Shown in pieces: positions 30,478 to 37,793 of a DNA stretch of 64,000 bases. Within the stretch, counting starts at the first letter, position 1; each line of letters opens with the position of its first letter. The notes under the pieces were generated by a model. The model had not been told where the DNA came from and did no database searches. It saw only the letters and a program-made list of their open reading frames with translations. Source of the DNA: an uncultured Eubacteriales bacterium (GTDB lineage: Bacteria; Bacillota; Clostridia; Lachnospirales; Lachnospiraceae); NCBI GenBank assembly GCA_900317515.1, contig ONHA01000007.1, positions 1 to 64,000 of the forward strand, in the 5' to 3' direction. The translations under genes were made by a program, and so were the position numbers.

Positions 30478-30488
30478 ACCTTTCGTTT

Positions 30489-30561
<73 letters not shown>

Positions 30562-30569
30562 TAAGGAAG

Positions 30570-31688: not shown

Positions 31689-31973
31689 TTATTTTTTTCG
31701 AAGCAGTCCGACAAGTGTTATGAGGATTGTAATTTCCTGCTCATCAAGCCCGCTGACGTCAATGGTTTTGCCCCTTTCAATTCCGAGAAGATAATCAGAG
31801 GAAACGTGGAAAATAGCAGCAAGCTTAACGAGAATCTCAGGCGATGGTGTGCGTGTATGAAGTTCATAGTAACTGACAACTGTTTTGGTGACACCCAACT
31901 GGGTGGCGAGCTGTTGTTGTGTTAATCCGGCATTGAGACGTAATTCCTTTAACGTTTTACCAAAATCAACCAT
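31689..31973 (-). CDS. XRE-family regulator beside the RiPP operon
   Basis: This is a 94-residue protein; ATG 31973 is chosen because TGAGGT stands six bases before it. Residues 1-65 are a Cro/C1 helix-turn-helix (GKTLKELRLNAGLTQQQLATQLGVTKTVVSYYELHTRTPSPEILVKLAAIFHVSSDYLLG). The tail (LDEQEITILITLVGLLRKK) is a probable dimer helix. It is divergent from the putative RiPP operon and shares its AT-rich codons, so it may control that operon. Confidence 0.85.
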   Translation of the reverse strand: MVDFGKTLKELRLNAGLTQQQLATQLGVTKTVVSYYELHTRTPSPEILVKLAAIFHVSSDYLLGIERGKTIDVSGLDEQEITILITLVGLLRKK

Positions 31974-32008
31974 AATAAACCTCATTTCTTAAAAATGTTA
32001 CTTTTTAG

Positions 32009-32037
32009 TTGAGTTTATACTATTGTGGTGCTATAAT
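32009..32037 (+). promoter_or_regulatory. candidate promoter of the RiPP operon
   Basis: TTGAGT at 32009-32014 and TATAAT at 32032-32037 have a 17-base spacer. The leader to the first gene is about 178 bases and AT-rich; no clear secondary structure was seen in it. Confidence 0.6.
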
Positions 32038-32221
32038 GGTTTTCCGAAGTACTAATATAGTTTACAGAAATAATAGCAAGTCAATTTCCAAGTGGATGGA
32101 TAAAATTTAGAAAAAAGTATATGAAAAGATGCTTTCTCAGTATGTTCCTGTGCCACCTGAACAGGGAGGGATCATAGGAGAAAACCACGATATCTAATGT
32201 AATATAGAAAGGACAGGGGAT

Positions 32222-32653
32222 ATGATTCACAAAGCAACAGACCTAATTAAGCAGGAATTTGAACATCAGGAATATCCTTATTTAGTTAAGGAAAGAGACA
32301 ATACATCAGCTATTTTGGCAGAGTTTGAGATTAAAAATGGCCCAAGTGTATGTGTACAGTTCCAATCTATTGATAACGATAATGATGTTACAATTCGTTC
32401 GTACGGACTTGTCAAAAATGTGACAGATGATAAAGTTGACAAAATTCTTAGGGTGATAAATGAATGCAATACACAATATCGGTACTTAAAATTTTTATGG
32501 GATGAAGAAGACAGAGAGGTCAGTCTGGCATATGATTTGCCTTCCAGAATTACAGATGCTTCAGTTCGCACATCAGCATGGGAGATCTTTGTTCGCGTGT
32601 ACCAGATAACAAACGAAGTATATCAAAAGTTTATGAGAGCAATTATTAAGTGA
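32222..32653 (+). CDS. YbjN-like small protein, first gene of the RiPP operon
   Basis: The 143-residue acidic protein follows GAAAGGACAGGGG. Its order of elements (helix ATDLIKQEFEHQ, strands AILAEFEIKNGPSVCVQFQSID, VTIRSYGLVKNV, helix KVDKILRVINECNTQYRYLKFLWDEEDREVSLAYDLP, helix TSAWEIFVRVYQI) matches YbjN/secretion-chaperone-like proteins. Such folds bind partner proteins. Here it may chaperone the precursor or a maturase. It is 36 bases ahead of the PqqD-domain gene. Confidence 0.6.
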   Translation: MIHKATDLIKQEFEHQEYPYLVKERDNTSAILAEFEIKNGPSVCVQFQSIDNDNDVTIRSYGLVKNVTDDKVDKILRVINECNTQYRYLKFLWDEEDREVSLAYDLPSRITDASVRTSAWEIFVRVYQITNEVYQKFMRAIIK

Positions 32654-32689
32654 TAATGTTTTGTCCGTAAAATAGATTAGTACAATCAC

Positions 32690-33865
32690 ATGGAAACATT
32701 AAAATCTACAATTGATGAGTTCTTTTCTCGAGAAACAATGCTTCGTACGGTGGATTACTTTATAGCACGATACCAAGAAACGGATAGGATTGATTTGGGT
32801 GGATATTTTATCGAAGGCAATCCCCGTTTTGAGAAAAAGAATGCCTATATTAGACATCCATTGCTTGTGAAACTTATGGATACTGTTGAGGTTGGTTTAT
32901 TTGAAACTGAAGATCTCATCAGTGATGTCACAAACAAAGAGGAAGACTATAAAATAGTCGCTCGAATAAACGTAGCTTGCGATGAACAATATGAACAAGT
33001 GATTCAGATTATTTCACCCTACGTGACTTCATGGTGGATAGAAAAATTAAACCAATATGAGGATTTTTTGAAGCCTGTATGCATAGGAGATTATCTGCCC
33101 TTGTATTATCTGAGTGTAGTCTTTCATGAAGGAGAGATACAATCCATTCGCGTGTACTTTAAAACTTTTGGCGTGGATGAAGATAATATTTGCAGCGGAT
33201 TGCTTGCAGAGACAGAGAAGCTGGCAGCATGTGACAGTGATCATATTCAAATTCAGGCATATAAGGCTTTTGAGGCTGCGGGAGCCGGGCATCTGCGGTG
33301 CATAGGTCTTCAATTTGATGTTTGTACGCAAAGGGATAGGACAAAATATTATTTTAAACCATCCTTAGGAAATTCAGAGTTTTTTGATGTTCTTGATAAG
33401 TACAGTGTTTTTGCGGGTACGAATAAGAAAAACCATGCTTGGATAAGAAGCTTATTCTCTGAAGAAAGGCGCCTTCGTCTCGATTTGATACAGATGAACC
33501 CGGGATGTGAGGGGACATCATCGTATGTGAAGTATTATTTTAAGCCTGCTGAAATTCCCAAAGAGGATTATTTCTCTATGAAAGCTGGCTTGGTAGTTCG
33601 CAACGTAGGAGGTGTGTATTTTCTAATTGATATCCATGAGAAGGATTACTATAACCTGAAAATCTTATACCGTCTTAATGAAATCGGGCAGGAAATCGTG
33701 AAATACGGGATATCGAGAGGAGTTTTTACAATCGACAGCCTTGTCTGCAATCTGAAAAGAAGGATAGTAGCTTACCAGCCGGAAATGTATGGTCAGATAT
33801 ATACAGATTGCAAAGAATTCATCTCGGAACTTCAAAAGATGGGATATGTAGAGAGGATGTCGTAA
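32690..33865 (+). CDS. PqqD/RRE-domain protein with an ABBA-prenyltransferase-like N-terminal region
   Basis: The 391-residue protein has two parts. Residues about 296-391 (AGLVVRNVGGVYFLIDIHEKDYYNLKILYRLN, then a helical end closing QKMGYVERMS) look like PqqD, the RiPP recognition element that binds leader peptides. Residues 1-295 show repeated strands ending in an aromatic-basic motif: IRVYFKTFG, TKYYFKPSLG and VKYYFKPAE, spaced roughly 70 residues apart. That rhythm recalls aromatic prenyltransferases of the ABBA fold, but this link is by eye and needs a profile search. It overlaps nothing and abuts the radical SAM gene (stop TAA, then ATG). Confidence 0.6.
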   Translation: METLKSTIDEFFSRETMLRTVDYFIARYQETDRIDLGGYFIEGNPRFEKKNAYIRHPLLVKLMDTVEVGLFETEDLISDVTNKEEDYKIVARINVACDEQYEQVIQIISPYVTSWWIEKLNQYEDFLKPVCIGDYLPLYYLSVVFHEGEIQSIRVYFKTFGVDEDNICSGLLAETEKLAACDSDHIQIQAYKAFEAAGAGHLRCIGLQFDVCTQRDRTKYYFKPSLGNSEFFDVLDKYSVFAGTNKKNHAWIRSLFSEERRLRLDLIQMNPGCEGTSSYVKYYFKPAEIPKEDYFSMKAGLVVRNVGGVYFLIDIHEKDYYNLKILYRLNEIGQEIVKYGISRGVFTIDSLVCNLKRRIVAYQPEMYGQIYTDCKEFISELQKMGYVERMS

Positions 33866-34981
33866 ATGTTTGCAGAAGAGGTAGGAAGCAGGTTTGGAAG
33901 TCTTCGAGAAATACAGGATAATACCTGGTACGAGAAACGTCATCCTTATGTAGGGGGGATTGAACTGACTCCATATTGCAACCTTAGATGTGTTCATTGT
34001 TATTTGCAGGATCAAAACAAAAAAGAGCAGAAGCTGCTCACAACAGAACAAGTGAAGGTCATTATCGACAAACTATATGATGCCGGCGTTCTGTTTTTGT
34101 ATTTTACAGGTGGAGAGATCTTTACCAGGTCCGATTTCCTGGAAATCTATGTTTATGCAAAGAAGAAAGGATTTATTTTGGAGCTTCTAACCAACGGAAC
34201 ACTTATTGATGAGAGGGTTCTGGAGGTGTTTCGCGAGTTTCCGCCAGCTTCCATAAGTATCAGTATGTATGGCGGTGATGAAGTTAGCTACGAAAGAGTA
34301 ACCGGAAGAAAAGGTATGTATGATAAAGTCATCCGGACATTCGTGCTGCTTAATGATAGTGGAATACATTTCGAAATAAAATACATCGGAATGAAGGAAA
34401 ATGAAGAGGATTTTCTAAAAGTAAAGAAAGTGGCAGAGGTATTTGGTGCGGTCTTTTCTTACTCCATGGAATTATTTCCAACTCTTCTCGGAGATTCATG
34501 TCCTAAAAATCATATGATGGAGTTAGAAAAGATTGTAAAAACGGAAATGCTTTCCGAAGGCTATGCTGAGGAGATACTGCGTCAGGCATCTGTTAAGAAC
34601 TCGGTAATGCATAAAACTAAAGTTCCGCTCTATATGTGCGATATGGCAGTCTCTAATTTTCTTATAGATTATCAAGGGTTCATAAATCCGTGTCATAAAA
34701 GCAGAATAAAAAAATGGAATATTTTATCATGCTCAATGCAAGAGGCGTGGGATGATTTTGGGAGCTATCGCAATGAAGTAGCCTCTAAGTATAACAAATG
34801 TGTGCGCTGTGAATATCTTATGATGTGTAGCCCTTGTGTTCTTGTAAATAAACTAACAACGGGAGATGAAAATATTCCTTCCGATACAGTTTGCAAGCTT
34901 ACCCATATGCGCGTAGTGGCCGCCAGAAGACAGGTGGCGCAGCGCAAGAAGGCGGCCTCTAGGAAATGGAAATCTTTTTAA
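33866..34981 (+). CDS. radical SAM/SPASM peptide maturase
   Basis: The 371-residue enzyme has the radical SAM cluster motif CNLRCVHC (Cys38, Cys42, Cys45), then TGGEIFTRSDF (GGE-type SAM contact) and LTNGTLID. The C-terminal SPASM Cys set includes MCDM, NPCHKS, KCVRCEYLMMCSPC (Cys312, 315, 321, 324) and a late Cys near 342, enough for two auxiliary clusters. Such enzymes make thioether or carbon-carbon crosslinks in peptides. The end is strongly basic (ARRQVAQRKKAASRKWKSF). The gene starts directly at the stop of the PqqD-domain gene, and a precursor gene follows 55 bases later. Confidence 0.9.
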   Translation: MFAEEVGSRFGSLREIQDNTWYEKRHPYVGGIELTPYCNLRCVHCYLQDQNKKEQKLLTTEQVKVIIDKLYDAGVLFLYFTGGEIFTRSDFLEIYVYAKKKGFILELLTNGTLIDERVLEVFREFPPASISISMYGGDEVSYERVTGRKGMYDKVIRTFVLLNDSGIHFEIKYIGMKENEEDFLKVKKVAEVFGAVFSYSMELFPTLLGDSCPKNHMMELEKIVKTEMLSEGYAEEILRQASVKNSVMHKTKVPLYMCDMAVSNFLIDYQGFINPCHKSRIKKWNILSCSMQEAWDDFGSYRNEVASKYNKCVRCEYLMMCSPCVLVNKLTTGDENIPSDTVCKLTHMRVVAARRQVAQRKKAASRKWKSF

Positions 34982-35036
34982 CTACCAGAAAGTTATTAAG
35001 ATATATCATCACTTTTCGCGAAAGGAGGTTACAATA

Positions 35037-35168
35037 ATGGAGTACAAGAAGCCAGAGGTTCAGAAAGTCTCTCTTGAAGCCAAAGGGACAGAGAAAGAAA
35101 AAAGTGCTGATGGACCATCTAAGTGCAGTAATTCATGCTGCTACTATCGTGATGGGGCAACCTGGTAA
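35037..35168 (+). CDS. RiPP precursor peptide, 43 residues
   Basis: This gene is too short for most gene finders. AAAGGAGG ends eight bases before ATG 35037; the stop is TAA 35166-35168. The leader begins MEYKKPEVQKVSLEAKG, a KKPE-type start like other recognition-element leaders, then a Glu/Lys linker. The C-terminal core is CSNSCCYYRDGATW, with three Cys, two Tyr and a terminal Trp. Cys could form radical SAM thioethers; Tyr or Trp could be crosslinked or prenylated if the N-terminal domain of the PqqD-type protein is a prenyltransferase. No Gly-Gly cleavage site or protease gene is evident nearby. Confidence 0.8.
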   Translation: MEYKKPEVQKVSLEAKGTEKEKSADGPSKCSNSCCYYRDGATW

Positions 35169-35257
35169 GAAACAGTTAATTCTGCAAGAGCACCTCTCTG
35201 AGATCTTTAATGATGTCAAAGGGGTGCTGAATTACAAAAAGAAGAGGAAGGTTTAAT

Positions 35258-35608
35258 ATGGCCATTATCAAATGTGAAGAATGCGGCGCAGAAATTAGTG
35301 ACAAAGCAAAAGTTTGCCCGAAATGTGGAGCGCCGATTCGAGAAGAAGAAAGGAATGAAGAAATCTATATCTTAATTCTTATAGGAGTTGGAGCGATTCT
35401 TTTTTTTGTGGGCTTATATTTATTGGGCACGGGTTTATCCACGATTATGGGAGATCTTGATGCACGCAGATATACCTATACGTCACCGTTGACTAACCAT
35501 GAAATGGAAACAATGTTTAAGACTTTTATGGGGGCTCTCATGTTCGGATTAGGTATAGGTACAGATATTGTTACAAGTATAAGGCGTAAAAAAATAAAAA
35601 AAGAATAA
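35258..35608 (+). CDS. zinc-ribbon membrane protein
   Basis: The 116-residue protein follows AGAGGAAGG. An N-terminal zinc ribbon (MAIIKCEECGAEISDKAKVCPKCGAPI, two CxxC pairs) precedes two hydrophobic helices (IYILILIGVGAILFFVGLYLLGTG and FKTFMGALMFGLGIGTDIV) with a short outer loop and a basic tail. It is the next gene after the RiPP precursor and could be an immunity or accessory membrane protein, though such proteins are also common alone. AT-rich codons match the RiPP genes. Confidence 0.75.
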   Translation: MAIIKCEECGAEISDKAKVCPKCGAPIREEERNEEIYILILIGVGAILFFVGLYLLGTGLSTIMGDLDARRYTYTSPLTNHEMETMFKTFMGALMFGLGIGTDIVTSIRRKKIKKE

Positions 35609-35695
35609 GTAATTATATAACGAGCAGGAGGTTGGTTGTATACTAAGAGACTTCTCACATCACAGCCAACCGCTACATATCTCGTCGCAAAAGTA

Positions 35696-35848
35696 TGCCT
35701 TATTATATGGGAAGAGACAGCCGTGTACGGATTATATAATGCTCCTGAAGTAATGGTTCTTAGGCGCTTTAGGGATGAGACTCTTCTTACAACCTGGTGA
35801 GGAAGAATTTTCGTAAGGGCGTACTATGAGCTAAGCCCATCTATTTAG
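35696..35848 (+). pseudogene. CFI-box C-terminal domain remnant
   Basis: Codons at 35718-35790 read TAVYGLYNAPEVMVLRRFRD, then ETLLTTW, a TGA stop, and GRIFVRAYYELSP. This is the CFI-box C-terminal domain (normally CYIATAVYG...PEV..LRRFRD..L..TW.GR.FI..YY..SP) found at the end of zinc-ribbon proteins. The stop and a missing start show decay. The rest of 35609-36042 has no gene. Confidence 0.7.
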
Positions 35849-36042
35849 GCTTGTAGTCTATCGTAGTAAGAAGAGTAAAAAACATAAGGTTCAGATGATT
35901 TGCGGGGAAGGTATCTTGGATACTGGCAACATAGTGTAAAAGAATAATTGCGAAGATGCTCGATTGTGTAAAAGATATGCACACTACTTAGTAACTATTG
36001 AATTTATAATATATGATATTGTTATACGAGGGAGGAATTAAT

Positions 36043-36333
36043 ATGAAGATGTCAGCAAAATTGATTGTCGGAGTTGTAGGTGTAATACTTGCGATAGCTG
36101 TATTAGTTGTAATACTCAAAATGCCGCATACGGTAAATGAGCCGTGTGACTGGTGTGATAAAAGACCTTCAATAGCATATGAGAATTCTGACGGAGAAAA
36201 GGCATATGTTTGTAAGGAATGCAGCAAATACTGCATGCTTTGCGATGAGAAAGCTACAAAGCATTATGAAAACATGGCAGGGATGATGGTTTTTGTATGT
36301 GATGACTGTTATGAAGCCGTGCATGGTGAATAA
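36043..36333 (+). CDS. small membrane-anchored zinc-finger protein
   Basis: The start is ATG 36043 after GAGGGAGG (96 residues). One N-terminal helix (LIVGVVGVILAIAVLVVILK) is followed by four Cys pairs: CDWC, CKEC, CMLC and CDDC, the spacing of a double treble-clef zinc domain. It may be a membrane-tethered metal-binding adaptor. I do not recognise a named family. Confidence 0.7.
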   Translation: MKMSAKLIVGVVGVILAIAVLVVILKMPHTVNEPCDWCDKRPSIAYENSDGEKAYVCKECSKYCMLCDEKATKHYENMAGMMVFVCDDCYEAVHGE

Positions 36334-36380
36334 ATAATGATAAGCACAGAGGAGTTACAGGTTTATGAAATGCGTGAAGT

Positions 36381-36824
36381 GTGGAAAACGTCAAAACATG
36401 CGCTGTCGATGACGGGGAGATTGCTCTTCTTCTTTGTATGATCGTTTTCTCTGCCTGCGCGCTTGCCGATGCGTTTGTGAGGGAAAAGAGAGAGAAAAGA
36501 AATAGTCTGCAGAGGAGCCCGGCTGTGAGGCGTGTCTTTGATGCGGGTCTTTGCGCCGCGCTTGCGGGTTTCATTTTCATCGGAGGAGACTACTCCGCGC
36601 ATGAGCTCTCCTTTGAGAGAGGCGCTCTTGCGGGCTACCATGCCGGAATGGAGCAGGGAATCCTTGACCGGGAGATGGGGCTCCCGGCCGACAGTCGAAA
36701 AACAAGAAGGAGCGTCCCGGAGAGCTACCGGGAAGGGGCGGCCCGCCATACAGGGTACATGTATTACTGGCCGACAGGGTACCACAAGGGGTATAAAGGG
36801 CAGGAGAGGCCGGACGAAGGCTGA
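36381..36824 (+). CDS. hypothetical membrane protein, probably 5' frameshifted
   Basis: The frame gives 147 residues from a GTG with no ribosome site. ATG 36365, which has GGAG ten bases before it, reads MKCVKCGKRQNMRC and then stops, a zinc-ribbon beginning in another frame. So the real gene may have been zinc ribbon plus membrane protein, now frameshifted near 36395. The main frame has two hydrophobic spans (GEIALLLCMIVFSACALADAFV and FDAGLCAALAGFIFIGGDYSAHEL) and a Gly/Tyr-rich hydrophilic end. The GC-rich codons are those of the host genome. A terminator follows. Confidence 0.5.
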   Translation: MENVKTCAVDDGEIALLLCMIVFSACALADAFVREKREKRNSLQRSPAVRRVFDAGLCAALAGFIFIGGDYSAHELSFERGALAGYHAGMEQGILDREMGLPADSRKTRRSVPESYREGAARHTGYMYYWPTGYHKGYKGQERPDEG

Positions 36825-36830
36825 AGATTT

Positions 36831-36857
36831 AAAAGACAGGCGGAAGGCCTGTCTTTT
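36831..36857 (+). terminator. rho-independent terminator
   Basis: A perfect 11-bp stem: AAAAGACAGGC with GCCTGTCTTTT around GGAAG. Confidence 0.85.
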
Positions 36858-36875
36858 ATTGTGCGTTGAAAAATA

Positions 36876-36951
36876 TTTAACGAGAAACATTAAAAAGTTA
36901 TTGACAAACGATTCATTGGCTGGTATATTTAATTTAACGGTAAACATTAAA
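36876..36951 (+). promoter_or_regulatory. promoter bracketed by two 19-base repeats (DUF2975/HTH operon)
   Basis: TTGACA at 36901-36906 and TATATT at 36924-36929 (17-base spacer). TTTAACGAGAAACATTAAA at 36876-36894 and TTTAACGGTAAACATTAAA at 36933-36951 differ at two bases, are partly palindromic and flank the promoter. They are likely operators for the small HTH protein at 37581. Confidence 0.7.
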
Positions 36952-37010
36952 TCGTTAACGAATAACGTTGAACCCGAATTAACCTTATAAAGCCAATGGA
37001 GGAAAGAATT

Positions 37011-37568
37011 ATGAATGAACAGAGCAGGAAGCTGGAGGCTGTCAGAAACCGCTGCAGGACATCATCACGGGTAATCTCCGTTTTGCAGATCGTGACAATT
37101 GTCGGTATCGTACTGGCGCTCGTAGGAGCGATTGTCTGCATTACGCAGAGGGGAATGATTGATGAGCATGTCGGAAAAGCGGTGGAAGCCGGTTCGGTAA
37201 CCGTCGAGAACCTCAGAATAGGGGGCAGCAATATAAATTTCCTGATAAACTATGACAGGGCTTTTGCCGCGGGAAATTATGCACTGCCGATCGCCATGAG
37301 CTGTGCCGTGGCAGCCATCCTCTGCGCCATTGTCACATGTGCTCTGGGGCTGTTTAAAGACATCTTTAAGGAGCTCAGCAGGGAGACAACACCTTTCTCA
37401 GACAGGATATTGGGCAAGCTTAAGTATGCGTTTATCATGCTGACGGCGGCGCTTCTGGTATTTGTCGGCGTCGCTCCGGCTGTCATAGGGGCTCTTCTTT
37501 TCTGGTGTATCTACTCAATACTGGAATACGGCAGGGCTCTTCAGAACGAGGTTGATGAGATTTTATAA
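37011..37568 (+). CDS. DUF2975-like membrane protein
   Basis: ATG 37011 follows GGAGGAAAG (185 residues). Four hydrophobic spans (VISVLQIVTIVGIVLALVGAIVCI, ALPIAMSCAVAAILCAIVTCALGLF, FIMLTAALLVFVGVAP, VIGALLFWCIYSIL) and the segment LFKDIFKELSRETTPFSD are typical of DUF2975. The family is paired with small YozG-type HTH proteins, as here (12 bases apart). Its role is unknown. Confidence 0.8.
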   Translation: MNEQSRKLEAVRNRCRTSSRVISVLQIVTIVGIVLALVGAIVCITQRGMIDEHVGKAVEAGSVTVENLRIGGSNINFLINYDRAFAAGNYALPIAMSCAVAAILCAIVTCALGLFKDIFKELSRETTPFSDRILGKLKYAFIMLTAALLVFVGVAPAVIGALLFWCIYSILEYGRALQNEVDEIL

Positions 37569-37580
37569 GGAAGGTCACGT

Positions 37581-37793
37581 ATGGGAAAAATAGTATTGCG
37601 GCTCGACCGGGTTATGGCGGACCGAAAAATGAGTCTGAATGAGCTGTCGGAACGTGTGGGAGTTTCAAATGTGAATCTCTCCAAGCTTAAGACCGGCAAG
37701 GTGAGTGCGATCAGATTTTCCACCCTGGTGGCAATCTGCGAGGCGCTTAACTGCCAGCCGGGAGATATTCTGGAATACAGTCCGGAAGAATGA
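37581..37793 (+). CDS. YozG-type small HTH regulator
   Basis: The 70-residue protein is a minimal Cro/C1 domain: GKIVLRLDRVMADRKMSLNELSERVGVSNVNLSKLKTGKVSAIRFSTLVAICEALNCQPGDILEY. It is co-transcribed with the DUF2975 gene. The paired repeats around their promoter are its probable binding sites. Confidence 0.9.
   Translation: MGKIVLRLDRVMADRKMSLNELSERVGVSNVNLSKLKTGKVSAIRFSTLVAICEALNCQPGDILEYSPEE

Follow-up and report, generated by a model that had tools for sequence, protein, structure and literature searches.

Among ribosomally synthesised and post-translationally modified peptides (RiPPs), the streptococcal RaS-RiPPs, which rely on radical S-adenosylmethionine (SAM) enzymes, are sorted into 16 subfamilies named after the core motif, according to the available part of their description (PMC13361665). 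MppC and the cyanobactin prenyltransferases are described, in the accessible passages of PMC12715784, as soluble enzymes of the ABBA (alpha-beta-beta-alpha) type that attach prenyl groups to Trp, Tyr and other side chains of RiPP cores; the cyanobactin and lasso-peptide enzymes work without a leader, and the lanthipeptide enzyme MppC needs one. In these same passages the prenyltransferases are neither fused to a PqqD-type domain nor paired with a radical SAM enzyme. The portions of the open-access literature covered by our search (including PMC11443524 and PMC11002830) likewise report RiPP prenyltransferases for cyanobactins, lanthipeptides and lasso peptides, and none was seen there with a radical SAM/PqqD pathway. 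In the bacterial ABBA indole prenyltransferase TleC, the diphosphate is held by Arg119, Lys187, Arg248 and Arg378, and the tyrosine shield consists of Tyr252, Tyr317 and Tyr382, both sets recurring at intervals of about 65 residues (PMC4786772, in the part available). Here, we analysed 64,000 nucleotides of an uncultured Lachnospiraceae bacterium (contig ONHA01000007.1, hereafter the window), in which a preliminary description made from the sequence alone had proposed a RiPP locus with a 43-residue precursor beside a radical SAM/SPASM enzyme and a PqqD-like domain. The locus very likely encodes a RiPP pathway with PqqD-guided radical SAM modification, carried on a small AT-rich island.

We favour the RiPP reading because the same enzyme and the same peptide are found in the same order in a genome of another genus of the same family (G045), whose enzyme is 45% identical to that of the window. 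The G045 peptide (MKYEKPDFSEVEVSTTQNTVDSSGKEGASQCSASCCWGEGCWWA, 44 aa) is in frame, lies 142 nt downstream of the enzyme gene, and has AAAGGAGG ahead of its ATG, the same ribosome-binding sequence that precedes the window's precursor. The two peptides align from end to end with a score of 75, which none of 5000 shuffles of the G045 peptide reached; the next best among the window's 519 open reading frames (ORFs) of 25–80 aa scored 36 against it. Their aligned cores share C-S-x-S-C-C-aromatic. These alignments establish the 43-aa gene as a conserved precursor. The preliminary description had called for a search of other genomes for such short ORFs beside the enzyme, and the G045 homologue is what that search returned; the good ribosome site it had noted upstream of the gene is also there. 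We place the leader at about residues 1–29 (MEYKKPE...) and the core at about residues 30–43 (CSNSCCYYRDGATW), the boundary being a guess.

More distant candidates extend the comparison. In a genome of the same class (G465), whose enzyme is 34% identical to that of the window, an ORF of 39 aa that begins with GTG, (M)KHMKFEMPTLQILVHEEAARIYGKETCSTDWSGCCYNG, lies between two pathway genes. The peptides of loci L007 and L183 were bettered by 1 and 6 of 5000 shuffles, respectively, and are only partly independent since they were picked by their leader pattern. P6 and C30 are invariant across the five aligned peptides. A profile built from three peptides matched the locus at 5.7e-24 when run on the window's genome, with nothing else below E 0.01; one further match (E 0.012) contains a stop. 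The window and G045 precursors matched no NCBIfam model, including the RaS-RiPP SSH and KGR models.

The enzyme itself has the features expected from the preliminary description, i.e., a Radical_SAM match, a CX3CX2C motif of sequence CNLRCVHC, and a SPASM-type set of seven cysteines. The cysteines of the first motif and those at positions 258, 276, 312, 315, 321, 324 and 343 of the SPASM region are invariant in the aligned enzymes of the window, G045 and G465. The Pfam SPASM model was not among its matches at E 1. Its closest relative by sequence in the PDB was SkfB (3.7e-11). None of its best 25 of 72 matches to NCBIfam maturase families reached even half of the family's cut-off. Enzymes of lanthipeptide or lasso peptide maturation were not found among the ten ORFs scanned (31689–37793), the enzyme being judged by the same best 25 of 72. 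Hence the locus fitted no named class among the models tried, as had been anticipated.

The PqqD-like domain lies at the C-terminus of the 391-aa protein encoded just upstream of the enzyme. This protein scored 35.9 bits on a local PqqD hidden Markov model (HMM), and the best of 1000 shuffles scored 9.5; the model was built from ten ORFs beside related enzymes, of which one (L037) was not PqqD-like and was kept in. On sequence evidence, the PqqD module occurs in three arrangements. It forms part of the 391-aa protein in the window and of the radical SAM enzyme in G045 (524 aa; Pfam PqqD 15.5 bits, below the cut-off), and is free in G465, where the stand-alone protein of 89 aa gave a clear Pfam match (40.2 bits, 4.4e-10). 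This difference in fusion partner between the window and G045 suggests that the two proteins act on the same leader.

Some results weigh against a PqqD-guided RiPP pathway. Residues 296–391 of the 391-aa protein scored 12.7 bits on the Pfam PqqD model (profile positions 10–66 of 67), under its cut-off of 23.4, such that the domain announced in the preliminary description stands on the local model and falls short on the public one. The G465 peptide resembles that of the window weakly, 123 of 5000 shuffles being as good. Neither a transporter nor a leader protease was found among the ten scanned ORFs.

In the mechanism that we propose, the PqqD-like domain would hold the Y-K-K-P-E leader and present the C-terminal core, from whose Cys residues the radical SAM/SPASM enzyme would form one or more bonds. 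The core would then be released by a protease encoded outside the operon. Our best guess for the N-terminal part of the 391-aa protein, three quarters of its length and overlooked in the preliminary description, is a peptide prenyltransferase of the ABBA type that the fused PqqD-like domain ties to the leader. This enzyme would add a second modification, by prenylating a core Tyr or Trp with dimethylallyl diphosphate (DMAPP) from the host methylerythritol phosphate (MEP) pathway. The window's genome encodes IspH (294.7 bits, cut-off 187.85) and gave no match to type I or type II isopentenyl-diphosphate isomerases, from which we deduce that DMAPP would come from the MEP pathway.

The suggestion of a prenyltransferase fused to a PqqD-like domain comes from a motif spacing that resembles the ABBA periodicity and from the G465 operon. 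The N-terminal domain has three hairpin-like stretches, which close with RVYF (residue 154), KYYF (219) and KYYF (281); the last two are mirrored in the DNA by a direct repeat of 17 nt (88%, 33344–33360 and 33530–33546, 186 nt apart) that encodes KYYFKP twice. Three or more copies of [KR][VILFYM]Y[FVYIL] were found only in the 391-aa protein and in a 314-aa protein of G465, out of 918 ORFs of 180–450 aa taken from the loci and the window (duplicates included). Chains of at least three [KR].Y[FVYILM] at a spacing of 58–75 residues occurred in 2 of 1280 distinct ORFs, again the 391-aa protein (three) and the 314-aa protein (five, counting KQYL at 43). Shuffling did as well on this strict motif 21 times in 5000 for the 391-aa protein and not once in 5000 for the 314-aa protein. 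The motif was defined after inspecting these two proteins, and all these counts therefore flatter it.

On one strand, the G465 operon runs from the gene of the 314-aa protein through a short Cys-containing ORF, a further radical SAM gene, PqqD and the gene of the radical SAM/SPASM enzyme to that of a NUDIX protein. The 314-aa protein stands alone, matched no family, and carries KFYV, KMYY, KIYY, KIYF and KFYY at positions 72, 101, 170, 243 and 307. The NUDIX protein is a type I isopentenyl-diphosphate isomerase (135.3 bits for a cut-off of 127, and 116.2 for a cut-off of 105.8), and its gene starts two nucleotides after that of the radical SAM/SPASM enzyme. Isopentenyl-diphosphate isomerase makes DMAPP, the donor of prenyltransferases. 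Of 245 genomes sampled from the class, 6 have a type I isomerase above the cut-off, and 56 have some match at E 0.001. No radical SAM gene was seen at the six isomerase loci, which were read by eye with a CX3CX2C flag for ORFs of at least 80 aa; one of them ends at a contig end, and small PqqD genes could escape such a reading. The isomerase of G465 is the strongest hint for a prenylation step, and it comes from one locus. Next to this operon (L005:9406-12885) lie ORFs that look by eye like one tyrosine and two serine recombinases, which suggests a mobile element.

It is therefore possible, and we propose it tentatively, that the N-terminal domain is a prenyltransferase. By the same token, the 391-aa protein may be a peptide prenyltransferase with its own PqqD-type leader-binding domain, giving a product both radical-crosslinked and prenylated, with an isomerase recruited in G465; we hold this fuller version no more firmly. 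Many observations speak against the prenyl step. Residues 1–295 gave no Pfam or NCBIfam match up to E 10, the whole protein had no PDB match at E 10, and no prenyltransferase was among the Pfam, NCBIfam and PDB matches (default HMMER filters). When the motif was relaxed to [KR].Y and the spacing kept, 14 of the 1280 ORFs reached three copies; shuffling did so 222 times in 5000 for the 391-aa protein and never in 5000 for the 314-aa protein. A search for [KRQ].Y[FVYILM] at any spacing found at least three copies in 18 of 363 ORFs from 37 regions around other radical SAM matches; we set these 18 aside by eye. The 391-aa and 314-aa proteins gave no alignment better than chance (E 0.67 by BLAST and 0.36 by hhalign), and a repeat HMM made from either missed the other. 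AlphaFold2 models computed without an alignment were of low confidence (pLDDT 38.3 and 33.8, respectively); the succession of strands and helices in them would be compatible with alpha-beta-beta-alpha repeats, at such pLDDT a hint at most. Foldseek found no match at E 0.001 for the low-confidence model of the 391-aa protein. Finally, only some 50 residues precede the PqqD-like domain in G045, and just upstream there is no open frame for the rest of an N-terminal domain.

Searches turned up no additional relatives of either protein with which an alignment could be built. The 391-aa protein found only itself in 291 genomes of the class, and four matches in 220 genomes of the family: itself, the PqqD-like part of G045, and two that we judged to be chance (E 0.002 and 0.007). 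Plasmids, phages and viral contigs yielded no relative of it. Searches of 38 genomes of its own family with the 314-aa protein returned only itself, and those of 177 genomes of the class returned three matches (E 0.002–0.009) also judged to be chance; it had no relative in plasmids or viral contigs, phages being outside this search. Neither protein found a relative by phmmer in the 37 regions mentioned above.

The rival with which the prenyl proposal has to contend is a plain radical SAM RiPP, crosslinked by thioether or C-C bonds, whose 391-aa protein contributes some other partner, e.g., a chaperone or scaffold carrying the PqqD-like domain. In G045 the PqqD-radical SAM protein and the precursor are kept and an intact N-terminal domain is missing, phmmer with the 391-aa or 314-aa protein found nothing like them in the other radical SAM loci compared, no homology to prenyltransferases was found, and a gene of the YbjN/TY-Chap kind adjoins that of the 391-aa protein. 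We give this rival about an even chance. It would, however, leave the chain of motifs, their spacing and the isopentenyl-diphosphate isomerase of G465 to coincidence. For a chaperone, moreover, the N-terminal domain shows no similarity to the neighbouring YbjN-like protein, and on the same grounds we rejected the idea that it is itself a YbjN-like repeat.

A role of the enzyme and the PqqD-like domain in a redox cofactor pathway like that of PqqE or mycofactocin, with the peptide dismantled afterwards, is improbable. The enzyme does score on the models of PqqE (67.4 bits) and of the mycofactocin maturase (86.7 bits), and a cofactor pathway would suit the lack of an exporter among the ten scanned ORFs. 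Yet these scores are far under the curated cut-offs (381 and 265, respectively) and are exceeded by that of the AhbD heme synthase model (114.4 bits), itself far from its cut-off of 500; radical SAM enzymes of the pyrroloquinoline quinone, mycofactocin and heme types were ruled out in this way. The other scanned ORFs matched no family of cofactor pathways above its cut-off. That the 43-codon ORF arose by chance and the enzyme acts on some other substrate is the least credible alternative, because, common as short ORFs are in the window, this one has a strong ribosome site and an in-frame homologue with leader and core conserved at the same place in another genus, which shuffling never equalled.

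At E 1e-40, a search with the enzyme in 195 genomes (the window's own and its relatives) returned two matches, the window's own and G045, and a search of 391 sampled genomes of the class also returned two, the window's own and G465. In the genus of G045, 1 of 35 genomes had a relative, G045 itself. Profile A1 matched 30 of 397 genomes of the family at E 1e-40, with scores falling from 626 bits (G045) to 196 in the next genome, and the genome scan based on it gave at least 80 loci, mostly of distant relatives. We built a tree of 61 rows from the window and the top 60 among 90 candidate ORFs, which were drawn from part of the loci. It grouped the window with G045 (support 100/97) and placed both in a clade of five rows (99/85) with L007 (Acetatifactor), G465 and G679. 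Branching order within this clade is unsupported, and G679 and G465 form long branches. An origin of the enzyme on plasmids was rejected, as the 349 matching plasmid records were all below 60% identity (22.6–29.4% in the 20 listed); so was an origin in phages, as viral contigs gave no match.

Other radical SAM genes drew our attention along the way. Three more related ones are present in the window's genome (L151 and L167, on contigs C20 and C73), with short PqqD-like ORFs near by (weak phmmer matches), from which it seems that the host may have several such pathways. In G045, a second and different radical SAM-like gene (451 aa) is followed by a 40-aa ORF ending in ACDPEQCPKCRCSDG (L004:9991-11528); this pair, starting about 2.5 kb after the precursor, is a possible second RiPP locus. 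Two genomes have similar short ORFs ending in QHFSKVS-AQWETNPNAS just upstream of a radical SAM gene (L160:8300-8443 and L168:3105-3263); they are candidates for a family of precursors whose C-terminus is strongly conserved. In two genera, peptides of 31 and 28 aa near radical SAM-like genes (L158:11973-12068 and L162:7429-7515) share a Y-K-K-P leader and the tail KHTNCSG(T/K)N, and have no NCBIfam match.

The ORFs, strands and coordinates of the preliminary description were all recovered (Table 1), and so were its AT-rich operon and the divergent XRE regulator. The gaps between the YbjN-like, 391-aa, radical SAM and precursor genes (36, 0 and 55 nt, respectively) fit an operon, the ATG of the enzyme directly abutting the stop codon of the 391-aa gene. 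GC content is 35–40% in windows from about 31.5 to 36.5 kb, against 50–63% beyond on both flanks. The tRNA was the sole Rfam match at gathering scores between 29.5 and 37.5 kb. A repeat search found no att-like repeats at the tRNA, and no integrase was found among the ten scanned ORFs. The regulator scored 59.8 bits on the RstR subfamily model, under its cut-off of 80. Our promoter scan is weak, given that it returned 18 sites for 14.7 expected; the site ahead of the operon is among its two best matches. The YbjN-like protein is present as announced, albeit just under the Pfam cut-off, and scored 16.4 bits on Pfam TY-Chap1 (cut-off 27). It had no relative among the ORFs of at least 90 aa in the other compared loci, many of which have short flanks. 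For this reason the gene, which may encode a peptide-binding chaperone, is of uncertain membership in the pathway and perhaps incidental. Further downstream, an imperfect direct repeat of 36 nt (78%, 36875–36967) just ahead of a membrane-protein-like ORF (36996/37005) possibly represents operator sites.

Table 1. Features of the locus and its surroundings (positions in the window).
Feature	Position	Strand	Remarks
tRNA-Ala	30488-30562		Precedes the AT-rich stretch
XRE/RstR-type regulator	31689-31985	-	HTH_3 1.1e-15; divergent from the operon
Candidate operon promoter, TTGAGT-17-TATAAT	32009-32037	+	10/12 match; TG ahead of the second hexamer
YbjN-like protein	32222-32653	+	Pfam YbjN 21.6 bits, just below the cut-off of 22
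391-aa protein	32690-33865	+	ORF at these coordinates
Candidate ABBA-type prenyltransferase domain, N-terminal ~295 aa	32690-33574	+	Repeated [KR]-x-Y-hydrophobic motif
Motif R154-V-Y156	33149-33157	+	
Motif R217-x-K219-x-Y221	33338-33352	+	K219 is 65 residues past R154
Motif K281-Y-Y283	33530-33538	+	62 residues past K219
PqqD-like RiPP recognition element, C-terminal	33575-33865	+	Residues 296-391; local PqqD HMM
Radical SAM/SPASM maturase, 371 aa	33866-34981	+	Pfam Radical_SAM 4.6e-27
SAM-cluster motif CNLRCVHC, residues 38-45	33977-34000	+	Cysteines invariant in window, G045, G465
SPASM region, seven cysteines, residues 258-343	34637-34894	+	C289 left out of the count
Shine-Dalgarno sequence of the precursor, AAAGGAGG	35021-35028	+	Eight bases ahead of the ATG
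Precursor peptide ORF, 43 aa	35037-35168	+	Homologue at the same place in G045
Zinc-ribbon ORF, 116 aa	35258-35608		Within the range of the preliminary description

If the prenyl proposal is true, a prenyltransferase with a built-in recognition domain would be a direct means of aiming such enzymes at chosen peptides. It would also join radical crosslinking to prenylation, a pairing not seen in the portions of the open-access literature that our search covered. Testing the proposal takes three genes and a single substrate of 43 aa. If there is no prenyl step, the locus still contributes an uncharacterised type of core, CSxSCC-aromatic, and a clear example of a single recognition domain that is either fused to two different proteins or free.

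How, then, does the locus compare with known systems? With the RiPP prenyltransferases MppC and those of cyanobactins, we found no sequence similarity to the window's protein. With TleC, in the part of its description available to us, the likeness is in spacing and residue type only: the motifs are 65 and 62 residues apart and one is of the form R-x-K-x-Y, but the two proteins cannot be aligned. The streptococcal RaS-RiPPs have in common with the window a short precursor and a radical SAM maturase, and the L183 peptide (MKKYEKPV..., a related leader type) weakly matches the RaS-RiPP SSH model (19.9 bits, cut-off 45); they differ in that the window's regulator is of the XRE/RstR type and that the window and G045 precursors match none of the models. 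The sactipeptide and ranthipeptide maturases SkfB, AlbA and PapB share the radical SAM architecture and a Cys-containing core, but their models gave the window's enzyme 48.3, 80.3 and 62.9 bits for cut-offs of 300, 850 and 340, respectively. The models of ScmE and ScmF, of what we take to be a similar cassette under the name SynChlorMet, gave 67.0 and 61.9 bits for a cut-off of 400. PqqD/radical SAM cassettes are also present at loci of other phyla. In five of them (L006, L008, L010, L012 and L029), an enzyme 31–37% identical to that of the window has a PqqD-type ORF beside it and a short Cys-containing peptide near by; three (L006, L008 and L012) have an extra gene that we read by eye as HprK-like. 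The peptides with Y-x-x-P leaders at these loci were mostly picked by leader pattern, so that their likeness in the leader is one of selection. The combination, which the preliminary description could match to no class it could name, is less isolated than it had seemed: short peptides with Y-x-K-P-type leaders are encoded near radical SAM genes at other loci too, and the locus is a small branch of this broad kind.

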